Shown piece by piece: positions 1 to 26,891 of a stretch of 40,772 nucleotides of DNA. Source of the stretch: Sporolactobacillus vineae DSM 21990 = SL153 (GTDB lineage: Bacteria > Bacillota > Bacilli > Bacillales > Sporolactobacillaceae). A model generated the notes under the pieces. The model saw only the letters and a list, made by a program, of their open reading frames with translations. It had not been told where the DNA came from and ran no database searches. The stretch spans positions 1 through 40,772 of the forward strand of contig NZ_KB899059.1 in assembly GCF_000377985.1 (NCBI RefSeq), written 5' to 3'. How positions within the stretch are numbered: position 1 is the first letter of the stretch; each line of letters starts with the position of its first letter. Position numbers and translations under genes: made by a program.

Positions 1-150
1 TATCAGGCTTTTTACCAGAAGAAGTACAGAGAAGTGACTCGGCATCAACATAAACGCGCACTCGTCTTAACCGCAAGAAAACTGGTACGGTTGGTGTATT
101 CGCTACTAAGCACCAACCAATTGTACACACCCCCTGAAGGGAGGACGTGA
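1..150 (+). CDS. IS110-family transposase, C-terminal end only (gene enters from left edge)
   Basis: Frame 1 is open from the first base to a TGA at 148-150 and encodes 49 residues. The segment HKRALVLTARKLVRLVYSLL followed by a short tail ending YTPPEGRT is typical of the extreme C-terminus of IS110/IS116/IS902-type transposases, where a basic helix with RALVLTARKLVRLV precedes the stop. IS110 enzymes use a RuvC-like DEDD catalytic domain together with a C-terminal serine-containing domain; none of the catalytic residues lie within the window, so activity cannot be judged. The insertion sequence would end shortly after the stop, somewhere in 150-327, downstream of the kinase operon that converges on it. 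Family assignment rests on this motif alone. Confidence 0.7.
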   Translation, partial: YQAFYQKKYREVTRHQHKRALVLTARKLVRLVYSLLSTNQLYTPPEGRT

Positions 151-184
151 GTCCCACGGTTTTTATCACATCCCTTCGATGACG

Positions 185-256
185 GCTCTACACCATATGG
201 TAATTTTTGTTAATCATTGTAGAGCTTGATTTGTGTACGCTTTTTTAAGCGTTTTT
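185..256 (+). terminator. Two hairpins between the IS110 end and the kinase gene
   Basis: GCTCTACA at 185-192 is complementary to TGTAGAGC at 218-225, an 8-bp stem with a 25-nt loop. Then ACGCTT (237-242) and AAGCGT (247-252) form a 6-bp stem followed by a run of T, which could terminate the transposase transcript. A third short inverted repeat, TAGGCTT/AAGCCTA near 317-331, lies at the stop of the convergent kinase gene. The stems are short, so terminator function is tentative; they could also be structure at the end of the insertion sequence. Confidence 0.35.
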
Positions 257-327
257 GGATAAAGGCTTTGAAAAATTTCCAATTCCCTATTTTTAGGGTC
301 TTGACATATTACCACTAGGCTTTAAGC

Positions 328-2322
328 CTATTTTATCCAGTGATTAGCTTTCAACTCGTCGATCAGATGACTCAGCGGTGCAAGCTCCGGATCATTGGCG
401 CCGTCCGGACTGTACTTTAATGCAAGCTGGTAATTCTTCACGACTCTACTGTAATTCCTTTTGGCTGCAGGCTTGCTGTTTTCCATATCGGCGTAGAGCA
501 GAGCAAGCTGAATGTAGCACGTGTACTCCGTCGGATATTTCTTCTTCATCGCAAGCAGCACTTTTTCACTGCCTTTATAATCGTTCATTTCCTGATAGAT
601 AATCGCGATGTTGCGGTAGAGATAGGGCCGCTCGTACCCATTGGCAATTAACTGTTTGAACAGATTGACCGATAATTTGTTGAACCCGTTACGGTTTTGG
701 CCGGCTGAGCCTTTTTCATGATAGGCTTCGGCAAGCATCTCCGTAAGCTGCATCGCATCCTGACCCTTAATTTCCTGCAATCCCTGTTTCAAGATGGCAA
801 TCCGCTGATCAAGATGCTGGTCATGCAGTGCTGATGCATGTATTTTATATAAATCAGCCAATGCCAGAACGCTTCTCAGTTTCAGAGACGGATCATTTCC
901 TCTGGTTAATACTTTTTTATACTGAGCCGCTGCCTGAGTATCGTTTCCACTGGCGCTGGCTATTTCCGCCTGCACATACCAGGTCACTTCATCAGCAATG
1001 TGTTCCTTATTCATCTTCTGCAGCACTAAATTCGCAGCGCTGAGCTGTTTAGCCCTGGCCAATGCCACCGCAAGATCCCGCTGATAGACCGTCGTTTTGG
1101 GAGACGCAGCGGAGACTTTACGAAGCAGCGTAATCGCATTCTCGTAGTCTTTCTTTTCGAGACAGGCTGCTCCCAGTTCATAGATCAGCCGGGGATCCTT
1201 GGCGCTCCCAGGAATATTTTTAGTCACTGTCTGAATGTACTTGATTTCCTCATCATATTTCTTCTGAAGATAGAGGCTTCCCGCCGTCCCCTCATAAGCA
1301 CCCAGTTCATGCGGCTCGCGGTGGATGGCTTCATCAAACAGACGTTGCGCTTTCCCGTACTGATAAGCAGCCGCAAGTGCGGTCCCCTGCTTGACCAGTG
1401 TCTGATAGTTTTTCAGATTTTCCGCTTTGACCTGCGAGAATCCGGACAGGGTGAGGGCAAAAAAGACGAGAACGCTGACAATTAGAGCGCCGACTTTCTC
1501 GGACTTTTTCCTACGTGCCTTTTTGTATCGCGACGACATTTTCTCGATGTTACTGAAGTCGTCCAGCAGCTCACGCGCCGTCTGATAGCGTTCGGCCGGA
1601 TCCGGCTTCAGCATCTTTCCGAGTATTTCCTCAAGGCCTTCCGAACTTTCCGGAAGCACTTTGCGAATCGGTTTGCTGAGAATCGCTGCATTAGGTGACT
1701 CGCCTGTCGCCAGCTGATAAAGAGTAACACCCAGACTGTAAATGTCCGAGCGTTCATCCGTCTGCGCACTGCCGTATTGTTCCGGAGCCGCATAAATTTT
1801 GGTGCCGAGTACCTGGGTGTCTGTTTTCGATTCTTTCTTATATTCACGGGCAATACCGAAGTCGATGACACGGACTTCGCCATCCGGCGTCTCCATCAAG
1901 TTTGAAGGTTTCATATCCCGGTAGATAATCGGGTGCGGTTGATGCTCATGCAGATAGATGTATACGTCACAGATCTGTTTCGCCCACGCCACCAGAACCG
2001 GTTCGGGAATTTTCCCGGCTCGCTTCAGCACCTTATCCAGTGACTCACCCTGGACATAGTCAACAACGATGAATATAGCTTCTGAAGTATCGACAATATC
2101 AAAGATTCTTGGCAGTCTGGGATGATTCAATTGTTTCATGATATTGGGCTCGGCAAGCAAATCAACGGAGACATCCGACTCTTTGTTTACCTGCTTAATC
2201 GCCCAGAGCGTTCCTAATTTGACATGGCGTGCCAGATAGACTTTGCCCATCCCGCCCTGTCCAAGTACTTTTAAAATTTCATATTTATCTTCAAATATCT
2301 GACCGATCTTCAAATCCAACAT
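328..2322 (-). CDS. Transmembrane serine/threonine protein kinase with C-terminal TPR domain
   Basis: A 664-residue Hanks-type kinase that would phosphorylate Ser/Thr on partner proteins from the inner face of the membrane. The kinase domain spans about residues 12-260: Gly-rich loop GQGGMGKVYLARH (21-33), catalytic Lys43 in WAIKQV, Glu58 in the C helix, catalytic loop YRDMKPSN (134-141, Asp136), DFG 154-156, activation-loop Thr167/169/174, and APE 179-181. A basic stretch precedes one membrane segment (about 278-296), and the remaining 360 residues are TPR-like repeats (for example AYQYGKAQRLFDEAIHREP). These should lie outside the cell, where PrkC-type kinases carry PASTA domains. A GGAGGTGAACC site precedes the ATG and overlaps the stop of the phosphatase gene 14 bp upstream, so the two are probably translationally coupled. 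Last gene of a six-gene unit. Confidence 0.92.
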   Translation of the reverse strand: MLDLKIGQIFEDKYEILKVLGQGGMGKVYLARHVKLGTLWAIKQVNKESDVSVDLLAEPNIMKQLNHPRLPRIFDIVDTSEAIFIVVDYVQGESLDKVLKRAGKIPEPVLVAWAKQICDVYIYLHEHQPHPIIYRDMKPSNLMETPDGEVRVIDFGIAREYKKESKTDTQVLGTKIYAAPEQYGSAQTDERSDIYSLGVTLYQLATGESPNAAILSKPIRKVLPESSEGLEEILGKMLKPDPAERYQTARELLDDFSNIEKMSSRYKKARRKKSEKVGALIVSVLVFFALTLSGFSQVKAENLKNYQTLVKQGTALAAAYQYGKAQRLFDEAIHREPHELGAYEGTAGSLYLQKKYDEEIKYIQTVTKNIPGSAKDPRLIYELGAACLEKKDYENAITLLRKVSAASPKTTVYQRDLAVALARAKQLSAANLVLQKMNKEHIADEVTWYVQAEIASASGNDTQAAAQYKKVLTRGNDPSLKLRSVLALADLYKIHASALHDQHLDQRIAILKQGLQEIKGQDAMQLTEMLAEAYHEKGSAGQNRNGFNKLSVNLFKQLIANGYERPYLYRNIAIIYQEMNDYKGSEKVLLAMKKKYPTEYTCYIQLALLYADMENSKPAAKRNYSRVVKNYQLALKYSPDGANDPELAPLSHLIDELKANHWIK

Positions 2323-2336
2323 GGTTCACCTCCGAA

Positions 2337-3122
2337 TCAGACGATCTGCACTGCCAGAAGCGTTACATTATCATCGCTCTGATTAACCAGTGCTTCATGA
2401 ACACACTGGATGCACAATGCTTCCAATTGTTTATTACTCAGCAAAACTGAGTGATCAAATATTTGCAGAAGCCGTGAAGACGCCATGAAGTTGTATAAAC
2501 CGTCCGAGCAAATCAGATAGATATCCAGAGATCGGGTCGCTTCTGTTTTCATATAGGGCTGAATCGTCTTATCGGCCCCAAGCGCCTGAGTCAGCACATG
2601 ACGGTACGGGTTAGACTCAATTTCTTCGCGCCTGATTTTTCCATCCTTAAATTCTTCCCATGCGGCTGTCTGAATGTCTGAAATGCAGTGAATTTCACCA
2701 TCACGGATTCTGAATACTTTGGTATCGCCGACATTGCTCAGGATCATGCTGTCTTTAAAAATATTCAGCATCGACAGTGTTGTCGCTGTCACAACATTTC
2801 GCTTCCAGGCATCTTCAAAAATATATGTATTGATTTGTTCATACTTCTTTTTCATTAACAACGTGACATAATCCGGAGAATAATCCCGGTTCGAATCCAG
2901 CTCGCTGTTCAGCGCATCAATGGTCAGCCGGCTTGCCTGTCCGCCGAACTGATGCCCGCCGACACCGTCGGCAACCGCAAAGGTCGCCATGACGAGTTCC
3001 GGTCTCGCAAGATAGCTGTCCTGATTTTCCGACCGAATGCCCCTCTCAGTCGCCGCCCCATATCGGACAAAGGGCTTCATACGCAGCGTCTCATCTACCT
3101 GTTCCTCACTCAATGTTTCCAT
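2337..3122 (-). CDS. PP2C-type serine/threonine protein phosphatase
   Basis: A 261-residue cytoplasmic PPM/PP2C phosphatase, expected to reverse phosphorylation by the adjacent kinase in a Mn/Mg-dependent reaction. Metal-binding motifs are present in order: SENQDSYLA (Asp35), ADGVGGH (51-57, Asp52), LSNVGDTKVFR (128-138), CSDGLYNFM (205-213, Asp207) and SDDNVTLLAVQI (249-260, Asp251/Asn252). The length is that of a single-domain bacterial enzyme of the PrpC/Stp type, with about 20 extra N-terminal residues. The start is less certain than the family: the only Shine-Dalgarno-like bases are a GGGGG run directly against the ATG, overlapping the stop region of the FHA gene 6 bp upstream, so translation may depend on coupling. 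It sits between the FHA protein and the kinase, the usual writer/eraser arrangement. Confidence 0.93.
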   Translation of the reverse strand: METLSEEQVDETLRMKPFVRYGAATERGIRSENQDSYLARPELVMATFAVADGVGGHQFGGQASRLTIDALNSELDSNRDYSPDYVTLLMKKKYEQINTYIFEDAWKRNVVTATTLSMLNIFKDSMILSNVGDTKVFRIRDGEIHCISDIQTAAWEEFKDGKIRREEIESNPYRHVLTQALGADKTIQPYMKTEATRSLDIYLICSDGLYNFMASSRLLQIFDHSVLLSNKQLEALCIQCVHEALVNQSDDNVTLLAVQIV

Positions 3123-3128
3123 CCCCCG

Positions 3129-3809
3129 TCAGTTCACGACTAATTCTGTCTTGCCGATTTTAAAGTACTGACCAGCAGCAAGTTCCTCCTGACCTTTCAC
3201 CTGACGGGATTCGATGTATGTCCCGTTTTTACTGTCCAGGTCAACGAGATAGTATTTCCCTGATTTGGTATATATCAACGCATGAACACGCCCAACATAC
3301 CCGTCATTGGCAATGACCAGATCACATTGATCCGGATCTCTTCCGATCCGGACCGGCTCACTGCCTGTCCAGGAGTATTGTTCTTTTTCACTGCCGATCT
3401 GATAGTCGATGGTCCTCTTCGCCTGCTTCTGAAGCGGCGGAATACTTTCATCCTTGCTGAGCAGCATCGTGGCATCTTCCGGGCCCGCATTTTTGATGTC
3501 CCCCTTGATTTTTGGGGACAGGTTGCTGATCGGATGCAGCATTTCCGTTTTTTCTTCTTCACGATTTTCCGGAATCGGCATGGACTTCCGGGCTTTCTCA
3601 ACCTGCTGTGCTTGTACGTCTGATAGTGCCGTTGTTTTTGAGCGGTCTTCGTCCTGACCGGTTTCAGAATCCTGCAGCTTCTGATACAGGGACACCGCTG
3701 TTTCCGGTCTTTCGGTATTCTTCCTTCTCATGATGGCAATAATCAGTATCACATTCGCCACAAGAGCAACCCCGATAATGAGATAGATCAGTGTTAAATT
3801 ATTTGACAT
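3129..3809 (-). CDS. Single-pass membrane protein with C-terminal FHA domain
   Basis: A 226-residue protein: an N-terminal membrane segment (LTLIYLIIGVALVANVILII, about residues 5-24), a charged low-complexity linker, and a C-terminal FHA domain in the last 85 residues, which normally reads phosphothreonine. Seen are VRIGRDPDQCDLVI, the DLDSKNGTYI loop and the terminal KIGKTELVV strand. The usual V-S-R-x-H-A loop reads V-G-R-V-H-A, so the Ser that normally contacts phosphothreonine is Gly. The start was set at the ATG at 3807-3809 because GGGGGGAG lies 5 nt upstream; the frame is open further, to 3860 inside the ABC gene, but no better site exists. The gene lies between the FHA-ABC exporter and the phosphatase. 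It may be a kinase substrate or scaffold. Confidence 0.85.
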   Translation of the reverse strand: MSNNLTLIYLIIGVALVANVILIIAIMRRKNTERPETAVSLYQKLQDSETGQDEDRSKTTALSDVQAQQVEKARKSMPIPENREEEKTEMLHPISNLSPKIKGDIKNAGPEDATMLLSKDESIPPLQKQAKRTIDYQIGSEKEQYSWTGSEPVRIGRDPDQCDLVIANDGYVGRVHALIYTKSGKYYLVDLDSKNGTYIESRQVKGQEELAAGQYFKIGKTELVVN

Positions 3810-3828
3810 ATTGCTCCCCCCCTGCATT

Positions 3829-6156
3829 TTACTGGCTGTCTTTTCTTTTGAGCAGCACATTGCTGAGAATCAGGCAGACCACAGCAAATCCGATCAGGAT
3901 CAGCCAGTTCTGCCACAGCAGATTCATTCGATGATCAAAATAGACGGGAAGATCCCTGGGCGGAACCGCCGCCTTGGTTTCAATCTTCATCGGCACATTG
4001 TTCAAATTAAAGGATATCGCCATCGCACGCGAAGCCCATTTGCTGATCGCCAGATTTGAAATCAGATCGCTCCATTTCTTCAGATCGAAGACCAGTCCGT
4101 TGAACATCAGCTGGGGAATCAGCAGCAGCGGAGCCAGACTCATCGCCCGGTCTGAATTGGAAACAAGGCAGGAGACAACTAATCCCATCGCCGTTGCAGC
4201 CAAGACCGTAAGAAAGAAGGTGATCATGACTTCAAGCGAAACACTGCCGATCAGACTCTGCTTTGGAAACGGAATGACGTAATTCAGAATCCAGACAAAC
4301 AGCACCGACTGCACCGCCGCCAGTACACCGAGAATGCCCATCTTCGACATGAGATAGGGCCAGATCTTCAGATTGACCATCCGTTCCCGCTTATAGATCA
4401 CCTGTTCCTTAGTGATCTCTTGAATAGAATTTAGCAAACCAATCCAGACAGCTGAAGATGCTGCCGTAAAGATGACTTCCTTACTGGTCTCATAATAATC
4501 AAATGAATGATGATTTCCAACAAATCCAAGCAGCCAGGCAATCGCCGGTACCTGAAGTATGAGCAGGAAAAAGCGTGCATGATCTACCCATGTCAGTTTC
4601 AAATACCGTTCGAGAAGGATTCTGAACTGACGCAGTGCGCTCCGTCGGATGGTGATCAACTTCTGTCTGGCACTTTCACCGGATGGTGCCATGTGATGCA
4701 CATAGGAGTAGTACTGCGATTTGAGAAACCTTTTCTGCCAGTAAGCGGCACGTTCGCCTGTCTGATCATATACATCGGTGTATCCATCCACATTGAAAAA
4801 TTCCAGTGCGCCTTTCGGTGGTCCGAAATAACAGAGCTTTCCGCCGGTGCCGAGAAAAACCACTTTATCACAGAGATAGAGATTTGCCGTCGCATGGGTG
4901 ATCAAAATGATTGTCTTTCCGGTATTTGAGAGTTTCCGAAGCAGACGCATCATGTTTCGCTCCATACCGGGATCCAGCCCCGACGTCGGCTCATCCAGAA
5001 AGAACAGTTTCGGATCGGCAATTAGTTCCACCGCAATACTGACACGTTTGCGCTGCCCGCCGCTCAGATTTCGAATGACCAGATTCTCTTTGCCATCGAG
5101 CTCGACATCGATTACAACACGGCGAACCCGTGCTGTGATTTCTTCCTTGCTGGAATCTTCAGGCATTCTCAGTCGTGCAGCATAAGTCAGCATCTCGCTG
5201 ACGGTCAGTTCTTCATAGACAATGTCCTGCTGCGGCACATAGCCCATAATATTTTTATAGGCATTGAAGTTCGCATAGAAATCATCACCATTCACCAGCA
5301 CGCCGCCTTCTGTTGCCGGACGGAACCCATTCAGCGTATCCATGAATGTTGACTTTCCCGCACCGCTGCCGCCGACAAGTGCTACCAGTTCACCTGGTTT
5401 GATGCTGATTGTGATGTTGTCGAGGATTTTCTTACGGACTTTTTTCTTAAACAGGCCGTGGGATTCCTCCACGGTTTTTGAGATGGCAATCGCATCCAGC
5501 TGCAGGCCGTGAATATTCGTGTTGTAGATCAGCTTATTTTCTTGAACGATAAATTTTGTCCGGCCGATCATGATCACATCATGCGGTTTCAATTGAACGC
5601 TTGACCGGATCTGTTTTCCATTCACGAAGGTGCCGTTCGTACTGTTGCAGTCGCGGATACTGAATCCTCCACTGCCCAAATGAATCTCAGCATGTTTCCT
5701 CGATACCGGTCCCTCGGCGATGACCAGTGCATTTGAATGATCCCGGCCGATCATTACGGTCTGATCCGGTTTTAAATAAAGCTCATTCCATTTCTCGCCG
5801 ACCCCTTCATCGAGCAATGAAAAAAGAATAAAAACACCTTTATCATGATGATGTTCCGGATCATCGATCAAAATCTGTGTACCATTCTTTAATTCTTGAT
5901 TCTTGATCCGCTTGCCATTGATCACCAACCCGTTTGTGCTGTCCAGATCAACAATCGAACAGTGTCCATCGTGAACTTCAACCTTTGCATGGTGCAAAGA
6001 AACAATCGGGGAGTGAATTTCAATGGTGTTCTCCGTGCCTCGGCCCAGTGTCAGCACTTTATCTGAGGCCAAACCGAACTCATATGAATTGACCAATGCG
6101 TTATCGATATAAATATTCAGCACGCCTTTACGTGCATTGGCTGCTTGATCTAACAT
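3829..6156 (-). CDS. ABCG-type ABC transporter with two N-terminal FHA domains
   Basis: A 775-residue fused exporter half-molecule. FHA1 lies at about 34-104 (LGRGTENTIEI, VSLHHAKVEV, STNGLVINGK), FHA2 at about 133-205 (IGRDHSNALVI, VSRKHAEIH, STNGTFVNGK) with all canonical residues. The nucleotide-binding domain has Walker A GGSGAGKST (262-270), Q-loop region YVPQQDIV, signature LSGGQRKRVS (364-373) and Walker B LFFLDEPTSGLD (384-395); EPTSGLD is typical of the ABCG/White group. An ABC2-type membrane domain with about six segments fills 525-770. The order FHA-FHA-ATPase-membrane domain resembles Mycobacterium tuberculosis Rv1747, whose FHA domains bind the neighbouring kinase PknF (established for that pair). 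Here a kinase, phosphatase and FHA protein are in the same operon, so phospho-dependent gating is a strong inference. Substrate unknown. Confidence 0.93.
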   Translation of the reverse strand: MLDQAANARKGVLNIYIDNALVNSYEFGLASDKVLTLGRGTENTIEIHSPIVSLHHAKVEVHDGHCSIVDLDSTNGLVINGKRIKNQELKNGTQILIDDPEHHHDKGVFILFSLLDEGVGEKWNELYLKPDQTVMIGRDHSNALVIAEGPVSRKHAEIHLGSGGFSIRDCNSTNGTFVNGKQIRSSVQLKPHDVIMIGRTKFIVQENKLIYNTNIHGLQLDAIAISKTVEESHGLFKKKVRKKILDNITISIKPGELVALVGGSGAGKSTFMDTLNGFRPATEGGVLVNGDDFYANFNAYKNIMGYVPQQDIVYEELTVSEMLTYAARLRMPEDSSKEEITARVRRVVIDVELDGKENLVIRNLSGGQRKRVSIAVELIADPKLFFLDEPTSGLDPGMERNMMRLLRKLSNTGKTIILITHATANLYLCDKVVFLGTGGKLCYFGPPKGALEFFNVDGYTDVYDQTGERAAYWQKRFLKSQYYSYVHHMAPSGESARQKLITIRRSALRQFRILLERYLKLTWVDHARFFLLILQVPAIAWLLGFVGNHHSFDYYETSKEVIFTAASSAVWIGLLNSIQEITKEQVIYKRERMVNLKIWPYLMSKMGILGVLAAVQSVLFVWILNYVIPFPKQSLIGSVSLEVMITFFLTVLAATAMGLVVSCLVSNSDRAMSLAPLLLIPQLMFNGLVFDLKKWSDLISNLAISKWASRAMAISFNLNNVPMKIETKAAVPPRDLPVYFDHRMNLLWQNWLILIGFAVVCLILSNVLLKRKDSQ

Positions 6157-6198
6157 TGCTCTCTCCCCTATATCCGCTCTATTTCAAACTGAGGTACT

Positions 6199-7278
6199 TT
6201 AACCCTGATATTTCTTCTTCGTATTAAAGAAGACGAGAAATAATCCTGCAAACTGAACCAGAATGATGGCCAGCAGCGCATAAAGGATGAAATTATTTGA
6301 ACTCTGGGCCGGCTTTGTACCAGATTTCTCCGTACCCATTGAAAAATCTTTATGATCCAGTGTCTGATAGACACTTTCAACTGGAGAAAAGTCATTGATC
6401 TGATTGCCAGTCAATTTTAATTCTTTTAAACTTGTCAGATTTTCCAGCGGACCGATATTTTGAATCTTATCGTCGTTCAGATCGAGCACCTGAATTCTGG
6501 TCAGTCCGCGCAATGGATCAAGTTCTTTAACCCGGGAATGGGAAAGATCAAGCACACGCAGCTCTGTAAGATTACTTAGCGGTTTCAGCAAGACGACCGG
6601 GTTATTGGAAAGATCGAGCACTCTCAAATCAGAAAGTTTGGTCAAAGCATAAGCATCGGAAATGTTGTTATCTGCTGCACGCAGTACCTTCAAATTTAGC
6701 AGCTGCTGTACTGCGGACAAATCCTCGATCTTGTTGCTGTCGAGATGCAGATTGACGAGCTTATTTAATTTATTGATCCCATTGATCGACTTAATCTGGT
6801 TATTCTCCAGCATCAGGGTATTCAGCCGTGATAAATTGTTCAGATCATCGATGTCCTGAATCTGGTTGTCACTCAGGAAGAGCCGTTCCATCTTGTCCAG
6901 GTTTTGCAACGGTGTGATTGATTGAATCTGGTTATTCGTTAAATCCAGAGATTGAAGGTCCTTAAGCTTCTGGAGTGGCGTAATATCGGAAATCAAGTTG
7001 TTCTCCAGTCGCAAATCGGTGAGACTGGACAGATTCTCAATACCATTCAGATCCTTGATGTGATTGTCACTGGCATCCAGTGTCTTCAAATTATTTACGT
7101 CACTTTGATAAATCGTACCAACCGGTTTGTCGATTGCTTTACGAACGGATTGTTCCAGATTTTTATCTTTGAATGTTACTGCTTTTTCTGCTGCCTGAGC
7201 TGTTCCGGAAAACTGCACGGTAAATGCTGCAAGTGGTATTATCAGAAGTACTGCAATGATTTTTCTGAAACGTGTCAT
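6199..7278 (-). CDS. Internalin-like leucine-rich-repeat protein, membrane-anchored
   Basis: A 359-residue surface protein with a signal peptide (residues 1-29, AQA-A junction), a short cap region, then eleven consecutive 22-residue leucine-rich repeats from about 64 to 305 with the internalin-type pattern L..L.L..N.I.DI.PL. A short linker leads to a C-terminal membrane segment (about 329-351) and a basic tail FNTKKKYQG. The anchor is therefore a transmembrane helix, not an LPXTG sortase signal. LRRs of this kind bind proteins or glycans, so an adhesive or ligand-sensing role is inferred. It sits 42 bp upstream of the FHA-ABC gene and 82 bp downstream of the TPR surface-protein gene, in the same orientation, which links it to the kinase system. 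Confidence 0.9.
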   Translation of the reverse strand: MTRFRKIIAVLLIIPLAAFTVQFSGTAQAAEKAVTFKDKNLEQSVRKAIDKPVGTIYQSDVNNLKTLDASDNHIKDLNGIENLSSLTDLRLENNLISDITPLQKLKDLQSLDLTNNQIQSITPLQNLDKMERLFLSDNQIQDIDDLNNLSRLNTLMLENNQIKSINGINKLNKLVNLHLDSNKIEDLSAVQQLLNLKVLRAADNNISDAYALTKLSDLRVLDLSNNPVVLLKPLSNLTELRVLDLSHSRVKELDPLRGLTRIQVLDLNDDKIQNIGPLENLTSLKELKLTGNQINDFSPVESVYQTLDHKDFSMGTEKSGTKPAQSSNNFILYALLAIILVQFAGLFLVFFNTKKKYQG

Positions 7279-7360
7279 GGTCTCTTCCCTCTCTGATTTT
7301 TAAGTAGATATAGAAATTCTCTGGAAAGCTGGTCCCAGAGAATTCTTTAATACGTTTAAG

Positions 7361-9709
7361 TTATGGAGCAACAGGAGCCGAAGAAGATGCAGCAGTTGAG
7401 CTGCTGTCACTTGGCTGCTGCGAAGCCGCTGCAGTTGATGAACTATTCCCATCATCAGAAGGCTGACTCGATGTCGCTGCTGCCGGTGACGAGCTGTCTG
7501 ACTCCAACTGTGACGGATCAGAACTGTCTGCAGATGCTGATGGTGCTGTTGATGAACTTGAATCCGTGGTCGCACTATTTGTTGAGTCCGCGGCTGCCGG
7601 TGCTGAACTGCCTGTGTCGCCTGAATCTGCCGTTGTCTCCGGATCACTTAAGCTTTCACTATAATCCGGATCTGAAGCATCGATCGTATTGATGATTCTT
7701 ATGGTGCCGTCCGTTATCTCAAACACGTGCCATACATAGCCATTACCTGTTGTCGGGACGTTCAGCGTCTTCACAAGATGGCCGTCACGGTACAATTCTA
7801 CTTCCGCCTGACTCTGGCTTAACTCTGTATCATTACCATGTGAAAAATTATAAACGAAATATCTGTAAGTGGTACCGGGCGTTTCCTGGAAACTTGTTAT
7901 TGTCTCAGGTCCGTAGGCATCCGTATCATCATGGTCCAGTTCTGCCAATGTTGTGCCATTGCTGTCCTGTACCGCCGTATTGCCATAATAAACTTGATTT
8001 GTAGTCGAAGGATCGCTTGCGTCGACCCATGCAAGATGGGAATCCAGATCATCCGGCTCGGCATCCCAGGTCAAAACAACCTGGAAAGCTGCCTGTCCCT
8101 GTTTGATGATCGTTTCATTTTGCGACGTCGTCGCTCCGGACATCACTGTTATCTGTTCACTCTTCGTGACATAATCTGTTCCTGAATAGTTAACCGTATA
8201 GGTTCCCGGTTTCAAAGCTGCGATTGTGTAATTCCCGTTCTGATCGGTGGTCCCAGATGCTGCTTCTGAACCATCAGCATTTAACACATGCACTGTGGCA
8301 CCAGAGACAGGCGCTCCACTCTGTGCATCCGTAATTGTTCCTGAAATGCCGCCGGTTGGCTGCGGTGTCGGCGCCGGCTGCTCCGGATTTGAAGGAACAG
8401 GCTGCGGCGTTGCTGCAACTGGTGATGATGCCGGCGCAGATGGACCAACCGGGGAAGCAGCTGTCGGCTGCGATCCCGTCAAAGAATGAGTGGTTGTTCC
8501 TCCTGAAGCGATCGGCTGTGTCGCAACGGGTTGCGGTGTTGCTGTGACGGGCCGTGTAGCCGAACCGGATTGCGGATGAAGCACATCCGTACCAGTTGTT
8601 GCCGCCGCGGTTTGGGAGAGCTGTGTTGTTTGTGTCGCAGCAACAGGTTGAGAAGACTGTGCCGGCTGTTCCAATTGAGTCGACCCGGTGGCTGCCGCAG
8701 CGTCAGATGCATTTTCTGTCGACGGTGTCGGTGCCTTATTTACATCGAGGGTTACAGTATCCCGTTTGCCATTCGCTTCAGCTGTGACCTTTGCTGTTCC
8801 TGTCTGTTCCGATGAGAAATATACGGTCTCTCCTTCCTGAGCAGAGAGATCACCCGCACCGCTGGTAACAGACCAAAGCGGATTAACGCTGAATGTTTTC
8901 CCATCTGCATCTTTCCCGACTGCTTTCAGCTGGATTCGCTGACCCGGCGTCGCCTGTGTCGTGGATGTCTGAATCTGAAGTGATGTGAGAACATGCTTGC
9001 TGACCTTTATATTCTTCTGTTCCGAAATCGAGCCCATTTTTGCCATTACGGACTCATCACCATTTTTATTGCCCGTAAATGTATTCTGTTTCCCCGTCTT
9101 CGAAGACAGGTTCCCCAGATCACCGGGGATCAGCGACCAGCTGGCCTCAACAAGTTCTCCCTTGGCATCAGGCGATTTTTTATAAATTGTCTTGAGATGA
9201 GCCGACGTGCCGATCTGAACATTATTTTTGTCCGACTCAATGGAAATGCTCTGGCTCATTTGCCCTAATTTATCTGCGAACTGGCCATCTTTCGTTTTCG
9301 AATACCCATTGTCAAGATCACGGATCGCTGCCAGCACATCACCGCGTGCCAGATCGGTATCACTTAACCCGAGATAGAGCCTGGGCTCATCGGGCAACAA
9401 CTTTATCCCTGCTTTCAGCACCTGAACTGCAGGTTTGTACATCTTCAGCGCCAGGTAAGACTTTGCCAAACCAATACGTGCTTCCACATTGTTCGGATCA
9501 ATGCTCAAAACCTTCTTATAAGCAATGATCGCTTCTTTGTACTTATGTTCCTTGTAGTAATGATTACCTAATGACAGCTCCTGCTGAATCGTATGCTGTT
9601 TCACAATCTGAATGGTGAAATATGTACCAAAACCGCCCAATAGCAAAAGAAGTACAAGAATAATGAGAATGGATCGCTTTCTTCCAGGCTTTTCTTCCGT
9701 CTCTTCCAT
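7361..9709 (-). CDS. Membrane-anchored TPR / Ig-like / CarboxypepD_reg / YfaP-like surface protein
   Basis: A 782-residue type II membrane protein and first gene of the unit. Order: short charged N-terminus, membrane segment (13-37), TPR repeats (about 42-145, e.g. YKEAIIAYKKVLSIDPNN), two beta-rich segments of which 240-323 resembles a bacterial Ig-like (Big) domain, and a Thr/Gln/Pro-rich linker (325-452). A carboxypeptidase-regulatory-like domain follows (453-525, GTITDAQSGAPVSGATVHV), then a beta domain beginning VVLTWDAEPDDLDSHLAWV (545-672) that resembles the YfaP/DUF2135 type. The end is a 100-residue Ser/Ala/Thr tail with no LPXTG motif. Nearly everything should lie outside the cell. 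Start: ATG preceded by AGGAGGAAAATTTTAT. Function unknown; it may be the cargo, the sensor or a structural part of the exporter-kinase system. Confidence 0.85.
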   Translation of the reverse strand: MEETEEKPGRKRSILIILVLLLLLGGFGTYFTIQIVKQHTIQQELSLGNHYYKEHKYKEAIIAYKKVLSIDPNNVEARIGLAKSYLALKMYKPAVQVLKAGIKLLPDEPRLYLGLSDTDLARGDVLAAIRDLDNGYSKTKDGQFADKLGQMSQSISIESDKNNVQIGTSAHLKTIYKKSPDAKGELVEASWSLIPGDLGNLSSKTGKQNTFTGNKNGDESVMAKMGSISEQKNIKVSKHVLTSLQIQTSTTQATPGQRIQLKAVGKDADGKTFSVNPLWSVTSGAGDLSAQEGETVYFSSEQTGTAKVTAEANGKRDTVTLDVNKAPTPSTENASDAAAATGSTQLEQPAQSSQPVAATQTTQLSQTAAATTGTDVLHPQSGSATRPVTATPQPVATQPIASGGTTTHSLTGSQPTAASPVGPSAPASSPVAATPQPVPSNPEQPAPTPQPTGGISGTITDAQSGAPVSGATVHVLNADGSEAASGTTDQNGNYTIAALKPGTYTVNYSGTDYVTKSEQITVMSGATTSQNETIIKQGQAAFQVVLTWDAEPDDLDSHLAWVDASDPSTTNQVYYGNTAVQDSNGTTLAELDHDDTDAYGPETITSFQETPGTTYRYFVYNFSHGNDTELSQSQAEVELYRDGHLVKTLNVPTTGNGYVWHVFEITDGTIRIINTIDASDPDYSESLSDPETTADSGDTGSSAPAAADSTNSATTDSSSSTAPSASADSSDPSQLESDSSSPAAATSSQPSDDGNSSSTAAASQQPSDSSSTAASSSAPVAP

Positions 9710-9742
9710 ATAAAATTTTCCTCCTATTCCTCATAATCTCAT

Positions 9743-9771
9743 ATTATAGGTATAAAGAACCTGGTACTAAT
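9743..9771 (-). promoter_or_regulatory. Possible promoter of the kinase/FHA-ABC unit
   Basis: Reading the minus strand, a perfect TATAAT (9743-9748) lies about 33 bp upstream of the ATG of the first gene, ahead of its AGGAGG site. The hexamer 17 bp further upstream (ATTAGT) is a poor -35 match, so this is a candidate only. The surrounding 150 bp are very AT-rich. Confidence 0.25.
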
Positions 9772-9932
9772 GAATTAAATATAGCATAAATTATCCAGTT
9801 AATGATTCCTAATTGTTAAAATATATTGAACAGCATTACTTAAGGGCCATTAATATATCCCATTTTATTTTAAAAGATTATTTTTGACATAATAAAATAA
9901 ACCACGAAAATAAATTATATGGCTCCCTGATT

Positions 9933-9982
9933 GATTACGGCCAACGGAATGTACCACCTGGCACAGTTCGTTGGCCGTAATC
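9933..9982. repeat. Perfect 14-bp inverted repeat
   Basis: GATTACGGCCAACG (9933-9946) is matched exactly by its reverse complement CGTTGGCCGTAATC (9969-9982) around a 22-nt spacer. No T-tract follows on either strand, so it does not look like an intrinsic terminator. It could be an operator, a cruciform, or the end of a mobile element. Confidence 0.6.
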
Positions 9983-10133
9983 ACCCTAATCCGAATCCGA
10001 ACAATCATTCGATTACGTCAAAATTCAATCGACTTCTAATGAGGAATGAAGTGAACATCCAGAAGAAAGTCGGCATTAAAGCAACAGTAAAAAAGCCTGA
10101 ATACCTTGATTTAAAAGGAATCAGACTCGATTA

Positions 10134-10159
10134 TTGGTATAAATACACGGGAATGCAGG
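10134..10159 (+). repeat. Solo transposon terminal inverted repeat
   Basis: TTGGTATAA, five bases ATACA, then CGGGAATGCAGG matches the TIR of the four-gene transposon found at 14131-18528 and of the MITE-like element at 19102-19271. The interior-side bases GATTA and the outer flank TTGAAAGA are also shared with the left end at 14131. No partner end was found in this gap, so it is probably a relic of an excised or deleted copy. Confidence 0.6.
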
Positions 10160-10285
10160 TTGAAAGATCATTGATCAAGGATCTTAATCATGTCAACAGA
10201 TTACGTGGAGGGGCTGTTACCCTATATAATGTTTCTGATAATCATCTGATACACGGCGGATTTGATCCCCAATCTGCTTTAGGCA

Positions 10286-11389
10286 TCATCCTCCGATTGC
10301 CCTGTTATAAGTCAGGTCGAAATCAAATTTGCCCTTGACGCCTTTTATCGTGCAGTTAGTATCCCGATGCTGCCAGACATCGGCTTTCATCCCGAGTGTT
10401 GCATTGTAGCGCGCGATCCAGAGTAGATTGCCTTTGAGCAGCAGCTTGGAAGGAATCAGTCTTTCCTGATAATAATAATAGTTTGAGTAGATGCCCACAT
10501 GTGTATATCCCTTTTTCTTGAGTTCGTTAATAAAGGCATTAACTTCATTTGTAAGATCTGTTTGATTGTGTGTCAAATTCTTATATTCAACATCGACAAA
10601 AGCATACCCAAGCAGTTTCTTTACAGGATTCATCTGTCTCGCAAACTGATCGGCTTCAAGTTGTGCGTCACTAATTTTTGTCGCATCAAACATATGGTAC
10701 GCGTGCGCCTTAAGACCGGCTTTGCTGGCATTTTGAACATCTTGAACAAAATAAGATTTTGTTCCTGCAACCGGATAATCTTTTCCCTCGCTTGCTTTAA
10801 TGATTGCAAAATGGAAGCCCGCCTGTTTCACTTTTTTAAAGTCCAGTCCACCGGAAGCCGATGACTGATCATAAAATAAATCGATTCCCCTTTTTGCATA
10901 GCGGACCACATGGCTGTCATAGGTCACGGCATAGCCGTGATAGCCACCTGAATAACCAATGGTCAGCCAATGCCCCTGTTTGGCATATACCTTGATCGGC
11001 GTCGCAAGGTAGAGTGTGGTTTTCATCGTCTTTCCGGTGAGTATCGAGTGCAGATACACCGTATCCGCCGCATAACCTGTGTAACGCACTTTCGGACTCC
11101 CGCCGGCAACATACTTTTTGTATGTATAAGCAATTTTATTTTTATAATTGATCCGGTAGTAGCTTCCGATTGAACGATAAACAAAGACAGGTGCGTTCGC
11201 CGGCAGTTTCCCGACGACTTTGCTGGAACTGCTCGCTTTTGAATGAATGGTGATCGTCCTGGAAGCGTGTTTGACTAAAGCTCCTGAGGCATGAGCTACT
11301 AATGGTTCTCCTGTTATGATTATTGATGAAATCAGGAAAGCAGCAATCAGCATCGGAAATAACAATAGTCTTGCATATTTTTTCCTCAT
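10286..11389 (-). CDS. Secreted GH25 muramidase (lysozyme) with N-terminal SH3-like modules
   Basis: A 367-residue exported protein predicted to hydrolyse the beta-1,4 MurNAc-GlcNAc bond of peptidoglycan. A signal peptide covers about residues 1-34 (ends AHA). Residues 40-165 hold two SH3-like wall-binding segments rich in Tyr and Lys. The GH25 domain occupies about 166-367: RGIDLFYDQS (Asp170), GFHFAIIKASEG, GLKAHAYHMFDA, FVDVEY (264-269, the D-x-E pair Asp266/Glu268 expected at the active site), LLWIARYN, ADVWQH and the C-terminal FDFDLTYN. All key residues are present, so it should be active. RBS GGAGGAACTGT precedes the ATG. Transcribed divergently from the nuclease gene and independent of the kinase unit. 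Confidence 0.92.
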   Translation of the reverse strand: MRKKYARLLLFPMLIAAFLISSIIITGEPLVAHASGALVKHASRTITIHSKASSSSKVVGKLPANAPVFVYRSIGSYYRINYKNKIAYTYKKYVAGGSPKVRYTGYAADTVYLHSILTGKTMKTTLYLATPIKVYAKQGHWLTIGYSGGYHGYAVTYDSHVVRYAKRGIDLFYDQSSASGGLDFKKVKQAGFHFAIIKASEGKDYPVAGTKSYFVQDVQNASKAGLKAHAYHMFDATKISDAQLEADQFARQMNPVKKLLGYAFVDVEYKNLTHNQTDLTNEVNAFINELKKKGYTHVGIYSNYYYYQERLIPSKLLLKGNLLWIARYNATLGMKADVWQHRDTNCTIKGVKGKFDFDLTYNRAIGG

Positions 11390-11488
11390 ACAGTTCCTCC
11401 ACGGAAATATCTATCCCTTAATCTACCAGAATTTCGAATTAAGAACTACCATGAAATTCTTATTTTTATGGCAAACATCAAATTTTTC

Positions 11489-11517
11489 TTGACATTATGA
11501 TGGATAAAATATACTTT
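11489..11517 (+). promoter_or_regulatory. Promoter of the nuclease gene with a long leader
   Basis: TTGACA (11489-11494) is followed by TATACT (11510-11515, 15-bp spacing) or the weaker TACTTT (11512-11517, 17-bp spacing). Transcription would start near 11523, giving a leader of about 130 nt before the TTG start at 11652. The leader contains short inverted repeats, including ACCC...GGGT near 11574-11591 and a TGTGTACTCT/AGAGTTACA hairpin near 11598-11622, so it may fold; no known riboswitch class was recognised. Confidence 0.45.
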
Positions 11518-11651
11518 CAAAGCATAAATACACACTTTTGTCTCTTAATTAAAGACTAAGCTACCGTTTTCAAACCCGATAGCTGGGTGCGCCTGCTGTG
11601 TACTCTTGATGAGAGTTACATGGAAAAGTATCTATTGGGGGGAATTACATC

Positions 11652-12503
11652 TTGCATTCTCTTAGGAAAGTATTGCTTACAGTAACACTGGCGTTCAGTC
11701 TGATCCTGTCTTCTTCACTGGTTGCAGCTCCCGCCGTCACACAGGCGGCATCCTACCCAAAAGGGGCGGTAGCTGCAACTATAGCCAAAGAGGTTGACGG
11801 CGACTCGATTTACGTCCGGCTTCATGGTAAAAAAGTGGAGATACGTATGCTGCTGATTGACACACCGGAGACACATGATCCGCGATATGGTGTTGAACCA
11901 TATGGGCCGACCGCCTCAGCCTTTGCAAAGAAAGAGCTTCCTGTCGGCAGTCATATCCGCCTTCAGGAAGGGGTGAAAGGGCATCGGTACGACAAGTATC
12001 ATCGCTTACTGGCCTTCATCTATACAGCCAGAGGGCACCTCTATAACTATGACGTTATCCGTGCCGGCTATGCCCGGGTCGCTTACGTTTACAAGCCGAA
12101 CACTCAGCATTTGAGCTCCCTTCGTGCAGCCCAAAACGCAGCAAAGAAAAAGAAACTCGGGATCTGGAAAATCAAAGGATATGTGACAACCGGCGGCTAT
12201 CGATATCAGGTTCATACGTTAAAGAAACCAACGACAGCCTATCGAATATCAGGAGGACTGACCGTGTCACGCGGCCAGTATGCATCGGTCACAGTTGCGG
12301 CTAAAAAAGGAACAAAAGCCACGATTAAAGTCTACTACAGCTCAGGTGCCAGCAAAGCCAAGGGTCTCGGGACAAAGTATGCCGGCAGCAACGGGAAAAT
12401 TACATGGAAATGGCGTGTGGGCACGAACACAAAAAAAGGAAAATATCGCGTAGTCATTAAAATTGGCGGAAAGTCTATCACCAAATATCTCTATGTAAAA
12501 TGA
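11652..12503 (+). CDS. Secreted thermonuclease (SNase-like) with C-terminal beta domain
   Basis: A 283-residue exported nuclease of the staphylococcal nuclease family, which cleaves DNA and RNA with Ca2+. The signal peptide covers about 1-33 (TQAA). The SNase domain runs about 40-175: VDGDSIYV (Asp51), EIRMLLIDTPE (Arg65, Asp70, Glu73), EPYGPTASAF, YDKYHRLLAFIY (Arg118). These correspond to Asp21, Arg35, Asp40, Glu43 and Arg87 of the classical enzyme, with the same spacing, so the active site is complete. Residues 195-283 form an extra beta-rich domain (TWKWRVGTNTKKGKYRVVIKIGGK) resembling an Ig-like module. Start: TTG at 11652, the only start in frame before the signal peptide, with GGGGGGA 9-10 nt upstream. 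Likely role: degrading external DNA or biofilm DNA. Confidence 0.92.
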   Translation: MHSLRKVLLTVTLAFSLILSSSLVAAPAVTQAASYPKGAVAATIAKEVDGDSIYVRLHGKKVEIRMLLIDTPETHDPRYGVEPYGPTASAFAKKELPVGSHIRLQEGVKGHRYDKYHRLLAFIYTARGHLYNYDVIRAGYARVAYVYKPNTQHLSSLRAAQNAAKKKKLGIWKIKGYVTTGGYRYQVHTLKKPTTAYRISGGLTVSRGQYASVTVAAKKGTKATIKVYYSSGASKAKGLGTKYAGSNGKITWKWRVGTNTKKGKYRVVIKIGGKSITKYLYVK

Positions 12504-12548
12504 AAAATCCCAACAGAACATAAAACTGGTCATTTCACATTAAAAATT

Positions 12549-12597
12549 AAAGTACGGAAGCAGCAAGGAATGAATCGAGCTGTTTTCGTACTTTTTT
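12549..12597 (+). terminator. Intrinsic terminator after the nuclease gene
   Basis: AAAGTACGGAAGCAGC (12549-12564) pairs imperfectly with GCTGTTTTCGTACTTT (12579-12594), and the second arm runs into TTTTTT. The A-rich first arm means it could also act on the convergent gene ending at 12690. Confidence 0.8.
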
Positions 12598-12689
12598 GTT
12601 AACTGCAGATTAACTTTGTTTCATCAAATGTCCTAAGGATCTACTTGATCTAGTACGGTAGGGTATTTGATATTATCATAATGAAATCC

Positions 12690-14117
12690 TTAAAATTTCG
12701 TTCTGATCAATTCCGGATAGGAGTTAAACAACATGTAACCGTAGCTTCCGTCGAAAGCCATTCCTTCTGTTTCGCGGGTATTCATGCTGACCGGTATTTT
12801 CGAACTGTATGACTTATAGTTACGAACATCGATGCCAACAAAAGTATTGTCACTGCTGATGTAGAGACGATGATTCTTCTTATTGTACGTCAGCCCCTGA
12901 AAATACTTGCCGATCGGATACTTCACTCTGAATGCCGGTTTCACGGAGACTTTGCTGCCTGAAATGGTACCTTTGAGAATAACATAGCTTGCTTTGTAGC
13001 CTCCCGACAGCGAACCGGGCAGTCCAAGATAGAAATGGCTGCCATCGATCATCGCCAGCGTATGCGGATTGTATTCATTTTTGGTTGCGCTGTTTCTCAG
13101 TCTGAACTTCCATTGTTTGTTCATATTCATGTTCTTGTCGTAGCGAACCAAAGTGATGTATTTTCCGGTTCCCTTTAAGTTTGAATGTGCAAAATCCGTA
13201 TCCTGAAGCATGTAGAGCGACTGACCATCCGTCGACAGTGTCTGCCCATGTCCAATAGTTTTCGGACCGCTGATACGCATCGTATTGAAGAAACTGTCGG
13301 CACCGGCCGCCCTGTAGCCGTTTCTCACGTACCCGGCGTATTTTTTTGACTTATTCGGATCCACATATTTATACCAATAGGCAGACCGGAAATCTTCATT
13401 TTTCCTTGCCATACCGGACGGCAGCTTCATTGGAAACTTTGTAATATATCCTTGATTGGTGAAAGTCGACCAGGTCGTATACAGATTACCACCAAGGACA
13501 ACAAAACTTTGTGGATTAGTCAGCTGCCCGTCTTTTATAGGAGAAGAAATGCTGCTCTTATAATGTTTATCAAGAAAAGGAAGCCAGGCATAAGTTCTGA
13601 ATGTGTACCTCGCACCACTTGTCTTGTACGTTTTAATCTTTACCTTATTTAGTGCTACGTTCATTCTTCCGTAAATTTTACGACCGGAATCTCCTTTTTT
13701 TCCAAGTTTTACATCATAATACCTGGAATTGTTCACAATTCTTAACTTCGACCAGTTCTGACTAACACTGATTGTCTGAACGGACAAGGTTTGCGCTGAA
13801 CTTCTTGGCGCAACGTATTTGCCCTTTTTTAAATACTTTTTATAAATGTACACATAGTGATTTGCGTATTTGACCGTATACCAGCTCTTCGAGTATTTAT
13901 AGACGCTAACATTCTTGTGTTTTGAAATATGACCGAGTATTCTGCTCTTTCCGCTGGCACTTCTGTGATAAGGCGCCGTACTTAACGTATACGCAGTATA
14001 CTGATATTTCAGTGATGCGGCATCCGTTAAAGCTGGTGTAAGAAGTGCAAAGAAAAGTACCAGGGCAGCCGTAATAATCATGATTTGCCCGGAAATTTTT
14101 TTCAACATGCTTTTCAT
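12690..14117 (-). CDS. Secreted protein with SH3-like module and beta-propeller-like repeats
   Basis: A 475-residue exported protein of unknown function. A signal peptide covers about 1-34 (ending TDAA). Residues 38-100 form an SH3-like segment whose end, YIYKKYLKKGKYVAP, resembles the module of the neighbouring muramidase. Residues 115-475 contain repeated beta-strand blocks (SFVVLGGNLYTTW, HGQTLSTDGQSLYMLQD, HTLAMIDGSHFYLGLPG, QGLTYNKKNHRLYISSD, EGMAFDGSYGYMLFN) reminiscent of a beta-propeller; no enzyme motif is evident. The start may be ATG 14117 or the codon for Met4. The left end of a transposon begins at 14131, only 13 bp upstream, so the native promoter and probably part of the ribosome binding site have been displaced. 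Expression may be altered or lost. Confidence 0.75.
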   Translation of the reverse strand: MKSMLKKISGQIMIITAALVLFFALLTPALTDAASLKYQYTAYTLSTAPYHRSASGKSRILGHISKHKNVSVYKYSKSWYTVKYANHYVYIYKKYLKKGKYVAPRSSAQTLSVQTISVSQNWSKLRIVNNSRYYDVKLGKKGDSGRKIYGRMNVALNKVKIKTYKTSGARYTFRTYAWLPFLDKHYKSSISSPIKDGQLTNPQSFVVLGGNLYTTWSTFTNQGYITKFPMKLPSGMARKNEDFRSAYWYKYVDPNKSKKYAGYVRNGYRAAGADSFFNTMRISGPKTIGHGQTLSTDGQSLYMLQDTDFAHSNLKGTGKYITLVRYDKNMNMNKQWKFRLRNSATKNEYNPHTLAMIDGSHFYLGLPGSLSGGYKASYVILKGTISGSKVSVKPAFRVKYPIGKYFQGLTYNKKNHRLYISSDNTFVGIDVRNYKSYSSKIPVSMNTRETEGMAFDGSYGYMLFNSYPELIRTKF

Positions 14118-14156
14118 CTTTTTCTTTCAACCTGCATTTCAGGTGATTTATACCAA

Positions 14157-14346
14157 TAATCAGGCTTACTATAGCCTTGTTGATAACCAATCAACGGGTG
14201 TTTTCCGTTAAGAGTGCGGGAAAGTGTGCGTCGCTACGGATTCGTCGTTTGTGCAGTGTCACTTGTTTCAAAATTTCATCATGAACTTCCTGATCTGCTT
14301 ATTACTTATAAACGTTATGAGTCCCGTTGCTTTGAAAAAGCCATTT
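14157..14346 (+). pseudogene. Left-end fragment of the transposon with truncated DUF6431-type gene
   Basis: From 14168 the sequence repeats the start of the zinc-ribbon gene at 14532 onward, but 78 bp are missing where the full copy has CGGGAAAG twice (14581-14588 and 14659-14666); the fragment carries CGGGAAAG once (14217-14224). This is the signature of a deletion between 8-bp direct repeats. It removes both Cys residues of the first CPCC motif. Homology stops at GCCATTT (14346), so only about 60 codons remain. Confidence 0.7.
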
Positions 14347-14505
14347 TGTTATTGATGCCTGATTTTGGCCGAAAGTTGACGGGATTGCCTGTCCAATAAG
14401 TGCCAGCTATAATGTCCGTAGGACTTTATAGCTGGCACTTATTTTGCGAAAGGAAAAGGGTATCCCTTTTATCGTGTAATGCGACCTACACGAGGGATAC
14501 CCCTA
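14347..14505. other. Foreign spacer with two strong hairpins
   Basis: This stretch interrupts two transposon copies. AATAAGTGCCAGCTATAA (14395-14412) pairs perfectly over 18 bp with 14426-14443, and the loop contains a further GTCC/GGAC stem. A second structure has GGGTATCCC (14458-14466) pairing with GGGATACCC (14494-14502) and an inner TCGTGTA/TACACGA stem. Just before the first hairpin an open frame ends MPDFGRKLTGLPVQ then TAA (14397-14399). It may be the tail of another insertion sequence with its terminator and end; I do not recognise the family. Confidence 0.5.
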
Positions 14506-14540
14506 AACCAATAATATGATTATTATATCAGACTATAGCC

Positions 14541-15077: not shown

Positions 15078-15122
15078 CTCCTGTTTAAACTTCATAATGA
15101 AGGTTAAAACGAGGAGAGATGT

Positions 15123-17492: not shown

Positions 17493-17619
17493 CATCTGGT
17501 TAATTGGCTGTCTTATTTAAGATAGCCTTGTTTTTTTATAATCATTGGACAACATCGCCGGCAATCTGCGGTCAATTGCCCCCGTCATTTTCTGGACATT
17601 AATGAATAGCAGTAACACC

Positions 17620-19271: not shown

Positions 19272-19284
19272 CTTTAACCAAAAA

Positions 19285-19953: not shown

Positions 19954-20035
19954 GGATCATCCTCCTGATCAATTCATAGAGGCACTATCGCATGTCGCTA
20001 GGAGTATGAGAAAGTGTCCATTATTTGACGCTTAC

Positions 20036-26864: not shown

Positions 26865-26891
26865 AAGAGTGATCCCCATTTGATTTAATGA

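Follow-up and report, generated by a model that had tools for sequence, protein, structure and literature searches.

A six-gene kinase, phosphatase, FHA and ABC exporter operon in Sporolactobacillus vineae as a possible phosphothreonine-controlled export system

The window analysed here is a stretch of 40,772 nucleotides (nt) from Sporolactobacillus vineae DSM 21990 = SL153 (NZ_KB899059.1), which makes up the entire contig C18 of a 2.86 Mb genome in 45 contigs (99.77% complete). Near its start, six open reading frames (ORFs), all on the minus strand, occupy positions 328-9709 and encode a Ser/Thr kinase, a PP2C-type phosphatase, a membrane FHA adaptor, an ATP-binding cassette (ABC) exporter with two FHA domains, and two surface proteins, one with leucine-rich repeats (LRR) and one with tetratricopeptide repeats (TPR). 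The original prediction for this DNA had described six co-oriented genes here, and Pfam supports each of them (Table 1).

Table 1 Features of the six-gene locus and its contig edge (aa, amino acids; TM, transmembrane segment; RBS, ribosome-binding site; IS, insertion sequence).
Feature	Position	Strand	Basis
Ser/Thr kinase, 664 aa	328..2322	-	Pfam PF00069 5.8e-51, TPR_16; motifs; hydropathy; kinase tree
PP2C-type phosphatase, 261 aa	2337..3122	-	Pfam PF13672 4.3e-8; NF033484 1.9e-43, below its cut-off
Membrane FHA adaptor, 226 aa	3129..3809	-	Pfam PF00498 2.5e-15; RBS; TM; FHA motif comparison
FHA-FHA-ABC half-transporter, 775 aa	3829..6156	-	Pfam PF00498 x2, PF00005, PF01061; motifs; tree
Internalin-type LRR protein, 359 aa	6199..7278	-	Pfam LRR_4 3.2e-43; internalin A structures 7.6e-55; hydropathy
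TPR/CarboxypepD_reg surface protein, 782 aa	7361..9709	-	Pfam; tblastn; hydropathy
Candidate phospho-acceptor motif 1, EKTEML (adaptor residues 86-91)	3537..3554	-	sequence pattern
Candidate phospho-acceptor motif 2, DATMLL (adaptor residues 112-117)	3459..3476	-	sequence pattern
End of repeated, probably IS110-like element	1..320	+	near-identical copies at other contig ends
Promoter-like site, TTAACA-18-GATAAT, upstream of first gene (TPR protein)	9790..9819	-	consensus match only

The genes are transcribed in the order TPR/CarboxypepD_reg protein, LRR protein, FHA-FHA-ABC exporter, FHA adaptor, PP2C and kinase, with intergenic gaps of 82, 42, 19, 6 and 14 nt when the adaptor is started at its second, RBS-preceded ATG (3809) and not at 3860. 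G-rich stretches that may serve as ribosome sites lie ahead of the starts. All six frames are intact, as are the catalytic motifs checked. Judged by co-orientation and spacing, the six genes very probably form one operon with a single transcript, in agreement with the operon proposed before.

Membrane topology was predicted from hydropathy. The kinase would have a cytoplasmic kinase domain, one TM helix (residues 277-295; nt 1438-1494) and a TPR ectodomain (nt 331-1437), and its G-loop, AIK, YRDMKPSN (YRD catalytic loop), DFG and APE motifs are in place. The phosphatase likewise retains the PP2C metal-site motifs RxxNQD, DGxGG, SDGL and DN. The adaptor is laid out as an N-terminal TM, a cytoplasmic linker and a C-terminal FHA domain. 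The exporter has an ABCG-like domain order (FHA1, FHA2, ATPase, ABC2 membrane domain), an ATPase with Walker A, LSGGQ, Walker B and H-loop, and two canonical FHA domains in which the GR, S, H and N residues of the phosphothreonine (pThr) site are all present. The LRR protein combines a hydrophobic N-terminus, six LRR_4 stretches and a C-terminal TM. The TPR surface protein runs from an N-terminal TM through TPR (about residues 46-130), a weak Ig-like part and a Thr/Ser/Pro-rich linker to CarboxypepD_reg (455-531), an unnamed domain (about 540-675) and a Ser/Thr-rich C-terminus. Three surface proteins had been announced for the locus: the LRR and TPR proteins hold, and the third can only be the TPR ectodomain of the kinase. 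The description of the last protein as TPR/Ig/YfaP-like is right for the TPR; the Ig-like matches (PKD 2e-4, Big_1 2e-3) are both under Pfam cut-offs, and the YfaP label has no Pfam or NCBIfam support. By tblastn, that region has relatives on plasmids of other phyla.

The linker of the adaptor, before its FHA domain, contains two threonine motifs of the pattern acidic-x-Thr-x-hydrophobic-hydrophobic, EKTEML and DATMLL, compared with 0.13 in shuffled sequences. In descriptive counts, 11 of 13 FHA proteins encoded near related kinases show this pattern ahead of the FHA domain, a total of 13 motifs where shuffles give 1.3; two of these 13 have more than a single motif, and the two proteins without a match both belong to genome G794 (handles with G, L and C denote our genomes, loci and contigs). 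The sample consisted of 14 chosen FHA proteins, namely that of the window and the 13, three of which are close relatives, and it omitted four more ORFs with an FHA match beside these kinases (G722 19946, G846 7294, G794 37179 and G876k 735). The FHA proteins of L165, L169 and L171 carry EETVLL before the FHA domain. With a slightly wider Thr pattern applied to all FHA linkers in the fetched loci, we counted 65 matches against a mean of 47.7 and a maximum of 64 in 200 shuffles, a mild enrichment. In the exporter itself there is a single match, DQTVMI, where FHA2 begins. When an FHA domain binds its own tail, the residue at +3 is hydrophobic, as described in passages of a study that compares DgcB with GarA and OdhI (PMC6733907). 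The window adaptor resembles GarA, OdhI and Bdellovibrio DgcB, as portrayed there, in having a Thr motif with a hydrophobic +3 residue N-terminal to the FHA domain; it differs from them in that there are two motifs, the protein is membrane-anchored and a neighbouring protein carries two FHA domains. The pairing of two adaptor motifs with two canonical exporter FHA domains suggests that docking may be bidentate.

The kinase belongs to a group with a particular company. Against the 25 other genomes of the family it finds matches of 30-35% in 24 and none in one. In view of these low matches, and of a separate 663-aa kinase that the genome encodes beside a 251-aa PP2C on C1, it was rejected as the housekeeping kinase of the PrkC/Stp kind. 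In a tree of 81 kinase domains (SH-aLRT, quick search without bootstrap), the window kinase falls into a Bacillota clade of 19 (SH-aLRT 99), apart from the genome's second long kinase. The clade includes kinases of type VII secretion system (T7SS)-like loci, from an Agathobacter plasmid (WXG100, EsxB and DUF5081 annotations), G846 (EssC, YukD-FHA protein, WXG100-type match), G108 (WXG100 match only) and G876. In G876, from another class of the phylum, an FHA-FHA-ABC gene lies 0.7 kb from essC (TIGR03928, 1160 bits), and the kinase follows about 32 kb on, with a membrane FHA protein, PP2C and TPR proteins in the region. A further member is the kinase of L165 (G674, 8044-19222), adjoined by T2SSE and T2SSF genes, which we take to be Tad-like, and by a DUF6382-FHA protein. 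We collected 20 loci of related kinases (19 genomes and the Agathobacter plasmid), several of them cut by contig ends. Within 15 kb of the kinase, PP2C occurs in 10 of the 20, FHA in 11 (counting G722, although it is without a recognisable FHA motif), TPR proteins in five, WXG100-type matches in four, and EssC and LRR in one each. Kinases of this clade occur with PP2C, FHA and TPR proteins in T7SS and Tad-like loci, a link that the original prediction overlooked along with the paired Thr motifs. As side observations, a YukD domain is fused to FHA at L154 15653-16402, adjoining a T7SS-locus kinase; L082, L083, L089, L095 and L119 share a recurring arrangement, typical of Bacteroidales-type metagenome-assembled genomes (MAGs) here, of PP2C and a pair of kinases, of which one measures 1267-1307 aa; L119 is labelled Clostridia but groups with the others, and may be misbinned or transferred.

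The source genome itself contains two FtsK_SpoIIIE matches only, in frames of 801 and 802 aa, neither of them EssC-sized, and no WXG100 match in a search whose control was positive in Bacillus subtilis.

For the exporter, we found no two-FHA ABC gene among the same 25 family genomes (14 of the same genus): in 18 the query matches nothing beyond the ATPase part (32-36% identity), and the remaining seven have no match at E<=1e-30. At E<=1e-60 the query was matched in at least one of 199 genomes of the order (the source genome), at least five of 398 of the class (the source and four shorter proteins without FHA match) and at least two of 398 of the phylum (the source and G876), and a profile search matched at least four of 97 genomes of G876's class; these wide searches scored the best 2 to 10 candidates of each genome, so that every count is a minimum. 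Bacilli also have ABC relatives of family f58 (L027-L030), 621-644 aa long and without FHA match, which were set aside as a different system. All counts of exporter loci given from here on hold among the matches listed. There, long exporter relatives come from Chloroflexota, Cyanobacteriota, Bacillota, Bacteroidota, Ignavibacteriota, Campylobacterota and others, and FHA-ABC genes with a nearby kinase also lie on Rhodococcus, Brasilonema and Mycolicibacterium plasmids. Our FHA-ABC set numbers 33 loci, 29 from a scan of named genomes and four further; two are cut by contig ends (L064; G982, with the FHA part out of view) and five are shorter than 6 kb. Within 10 kb of the FHA-ABC gene there is a kinase in 17 of the 33, a PP2C in 15, both in 10 and either in 22. 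A separate FHA-bearing gene is present in 13 (EssC in G876, kinases in some others), TPR in three, once within a kinase, and LRR in none with a two-sequence LRR model that may miss weak LRRs. The phosphatase and the second FHA protein, earlier taken together with the two surface proteins as the sign of a more complete system, are at these rates not oddities.

A kinase or PP2C within 10 kb is more frequent in this set than in hand-picked ATPase-only loci (22/33 vs 4/19, Fisher p 0.003). That control had omitted seven ATPase-match loci (L072, L077, L078, L080, L081, L088 and L121); in a rule-based split over 80 loci, which restored the seven (26 in total) and added 25 FHA-only loci, the figures were 19/29 for FHA and ABC in one ORF vs 7/26 for ABC without FHA (p 0.007). 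In the exporter tree, the window protein groups with L045/L046, two Clostridia MAGs (support 98), outside the four actinobacterial rows (support 100) that stand in for Rv1747, itself not in the tree. The N-termini of the L045 (9836) and L046 (5739) exporters show EQTQF/ERTQF and DRTQYF before FHA1, possible phospho-acceptors on the exporter that the window protein does not have. At L062 7972-16211, from a Campylobacteraceae MAG, a caspase-like Peptidase_C14 gene stands directly upstream of FHA and FHA-ABC genes, followed by two small genes, PP2C and kinase.

The surface genes behave differently from the core. It had been expected that they would be conserved with the kinase-ABC set; for LRR, looked for in both sets of loci with the two-sequence model, this fails at the rates given, and neither surface gene is a fixed part. 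Extracytoplasmic TPR proteins recur near related kinases in five of 20 loci. The closest kinase relative, in G722, is 43% identical over residues 8-663, and its gene is part of a series, all in one orientation, that also encodes PP2C, four TPR proteins (TPR-LRR in one case), an RCC1 protein and an M23 peptidase; its 38 kb contain no EssC and no FHA-ABC match. The first of these TPR proteins aligns with the window TPR protein over 154 residues at 32%. At L045, copper-amine-oxidase-N proteins stand in place of the LRR/TPR surface proteins. Because they vary between loci, the LRR and TPR genes look like exchangeable inputs.

The core, a kinase beside an FHA-ABC exporter, is of a known kind. As in PknF-Rv1747 of Mycobacterium tuberculosis, the kinase gene accompanies an exporter in which two FHA domains are fused N-terminally to the ATPase and the ABC2 membrane domain, and the gene content supports the original analogy to that pair; unlike it, the window adds PP2C, a membrane FHA adaptor and two surface proteins. 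A second likeness is to the newer T7SS subtypes. Garrett, Higginson and Palmer 2024 (PMC11217815) describe T7SSc-j as subtypes in which FHA proteins, PPM phosphatases and kinases turn up repeatedly, with a TPR C-terminal domain in TsjD; the role of these proteins is still a suggestion there. Like T7SSe and T7SSj, as outlined in the same paper, the locus groups a membrane kinase and a PPM phosphatase with an FHA protein and a large envelope protein, and conserved pThr sites are present in some of the FHA domains. The window kinase, with its T7SS-linked clade and C-terminal TPR, is likened to TsjD by description. Unlike TsxJ of T7SSe/j, the window adaptor has an FHA domain only, with an N-terminal TM and no DUF6382 match, and the TM-FHA proteins of G846 and G876 are likewise without a DUF6382 match. 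Set against TsxI, a large Ig-like envelope-spanning protein, the product of the first operon gene has TPR and weak, sub-cut-off Ig-like matches. Unlike a T7SS, the locus comes with an FHA-bearing ABC exporter and with no EssC-sized ATPase or WXG100 found in the genome. The logic also recalls the threonine phosphorylation pathway of the type VI secretion system (PpkA-PppA-Fha, mentioned in PMC11217815), in which a kinase and a phosphatase act with an FHA reader to switch a machine of the envelope; unlike there, the output here would be an ABC exporter.

Taken together, we tentatively propose, at somewhat less than an even chance, that the six genes form a self-contained transmembrane phosphothreonine relay controlling the ABC exporter. 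The extracytoplasmic TPR domain would let the kinase sense the envelope, a task in which the LRR protein and the TPR/CarboxypepD_reg protein probably take part, and surface ligands may thereby gate export, a step that we infer, as the original prediction did. Once active, it would phosphorylate threonines of the adaptor linker, for which EKTEML and DATMLL are candidates. The two FHA domains of the half-transporter may then dock on the phosphorylated linker, and docking would recruit or open the exporter until PP2C removes the phosphate mark. The cassette of kinase, PP2C and membrane FHA protein would belong to the type that accompanies T7SS and Tad-like machines in Bacillota, but would act on an ABC exporter in this genome. 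By analogy, our guess at the substrate is an envelope glycolipid or polysaccharide precursor as the most likely cargo. Phosphorylation, docking, direction of control and substrate are all put forward here as predictions. In the passages available, the Rv1747 substrate was given as unknown in 2013 (PMC3908365), and export of phosphatidyl-myo-inositol mannosides (PIM) was proposed for it in 2017 (PMC5549992). What is new is the joining of an Rv1747-type exporter to a T7SS/Tad-type control cassette with its own surface inputs and no detected T7SS; we found no description of this combination in the searched portions of the open-licence literature.

Several observations weigh against the proposed relay. 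No examined locus has the same six families together, as the original prediction had hoped to see. The adaptor FHA domain reads GRVHA instead of SRxHA (nt 3279-3293), its usual Ser replaced by Gly; Gly occupies the same site in one FHA protein each of G846, G747, G108 and G736. G846 and G747 each have a second FHA protein, and in these Ser is retained. The threonine pattern was written after some of the proteins had been viewed, which makes its figures and p-values descriptive. EssC lies near FHA-ABC in one of the 33 loci only. Of 25 FHA loci that lack an ABC match, 15 also have a kinase or PP2C nearby (p 0.78 vs 19/29), and these similar rates indicate that such company follows FHA genes generally and not the ABC fusion. 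The trees add further points: the L045/L046 kinases belong to a clade distant from the window kinase, the G876 exporter belongs to another clade than the window exporter, and the window PP2C sits on a very long branch for which no placement was drawn. The next wider kinase clade (29 rows, support 97) adds G982's kinase and the Chloroflexota kinases beside FHA-ABC (L043, L048, L070 and L071), which would fit shared use as well as descent from T7SS.

The best-surviving alternative is that the locus holds an ordinary pair of the PknF-Rv1747 type, in which the kinase phosphorylates the exporter, the exporter FHA domains bind their own or the kinase's pThr, and the other genes are unrelated neighbours. 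A kinase near FHA-ABC is common across phyla and on plasmids at the rate given above, the wider kinase clade brings in kinases beside FHA-ABC, and PknF positively modulates Rv1747 according to sections of PMC3908365. Against it, the spacing suggests co-transcription of all six genes, the paired motifs sit on the adaptor and not on the exporter with its one match, and the kinase's own clade of 19 is one of T7SS- and Tad-like loci. We consider this account rather unlikely, though a serious contender. A lesser chance falls to the idea that the surface proteins are the output, the cassette governing LRR/TPR assembly or display in adhesion or cell-cell contact and the ABC protein acting as an envelope-remodelling factor. 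Two of the six genes do encode large predicted extracytoplasmic proteins, and the contig has a GH25 lysozyme gene immediately upstream and, at a greater distance, a polysaccharide cluster; but the surface genes vary between loci, as inputs would, and hydropathy gives both proteins short cytoplasmic tails only, and we regard this idea as doubtful. Least probable is that the cassette arrived with a T7SS island, which lost its secretion ATPase and substrates, and stayed as a leftover without coherent function. A kinase clade and an FHA type shared with T7SS-like loci, the lack of a match to an EssC-sized FtsK or to WXG100 and the IS-like element at the contig edge would fit such a remnant, but the six frames and checked motifs are intact, and FHA-ABC is not a component named in PMC11217815, as the term 'ABC' is absent from its main text.

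The contig begins 327 bases past the kinase stop, inside the repeated, IS110-like-looking element, and the genes past the kinase are out of view because the contig edge falls in this repeat. Contigs C35 and C4 carry near-exact copies of the first 320 bases at their ends, and copies of about 100 bases at 73% lie in C7 and C3; that in C7 falls inside a PF02371 Transposase_20 protein (6.4e-22), an IS110-family transposase gene. The six-gene island looks acquired. Positions 1-20000 of the window have no near DNA match in PLSDB, and a plasmid origin was set aside. So were a phage origin, the PHROG matches being those of kinase, PP2C-like, ABC, LRR and TPR families, and a defence system, the PADLOC matches being those to ATPase domains and kinase domains (mad6, PD-T4-6 and others), plus a weak one to PP2C. 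Promoter-like sites such as that ahead of the first gene number 28 in positions 1-10400, against 14.5 in shuffles.

Next to the operon on its upstream side (10286-12503) lie the GH25 lysozyme gene, with an SH3 domain (-), and an SNase-type nuclease gene (+). A three-gene transposon-like unit occupies 14541-17274 (+) and comprises DUF6431, an rve/Mu-transpos_C transposase and an AAA_22/TniB-like ATPase. The polysaccharide cluster at 20237-29620 has low GC (mostly 0.29-0.36) and encodes flippase-like, pyruvyl transferase, glycosyltransferase, sugar transferase and nucleotidyl transferase proteins; it is a possible supplier of an exported glycan.

Beyond this locus, and as a speculative extension that we think rather improbable as a whole, kinase, PP2C and FHA protein may constitute a portable control cartridge that can be fitted to a T7SS, a Tad pilus or an ABC exporter and whose surface inputs (LRR, TPR or Ig) can be exchanged. 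In this locus a cartridge of the T7SS type would have been re-wired to an ABC exporter, and two adaptor pThr residues read bidentately would make a tunable, surface-sensed export gate. The finding ties FHA-ABC exporters of the Rv1747 kind to the kinases, phosphatases and FHA proteins of the new T7SS subtypes. With its predicted docking sites, the compact six-gene operon offers a direct test bed for the gating of an envelope machine by threonine phosphorylation.

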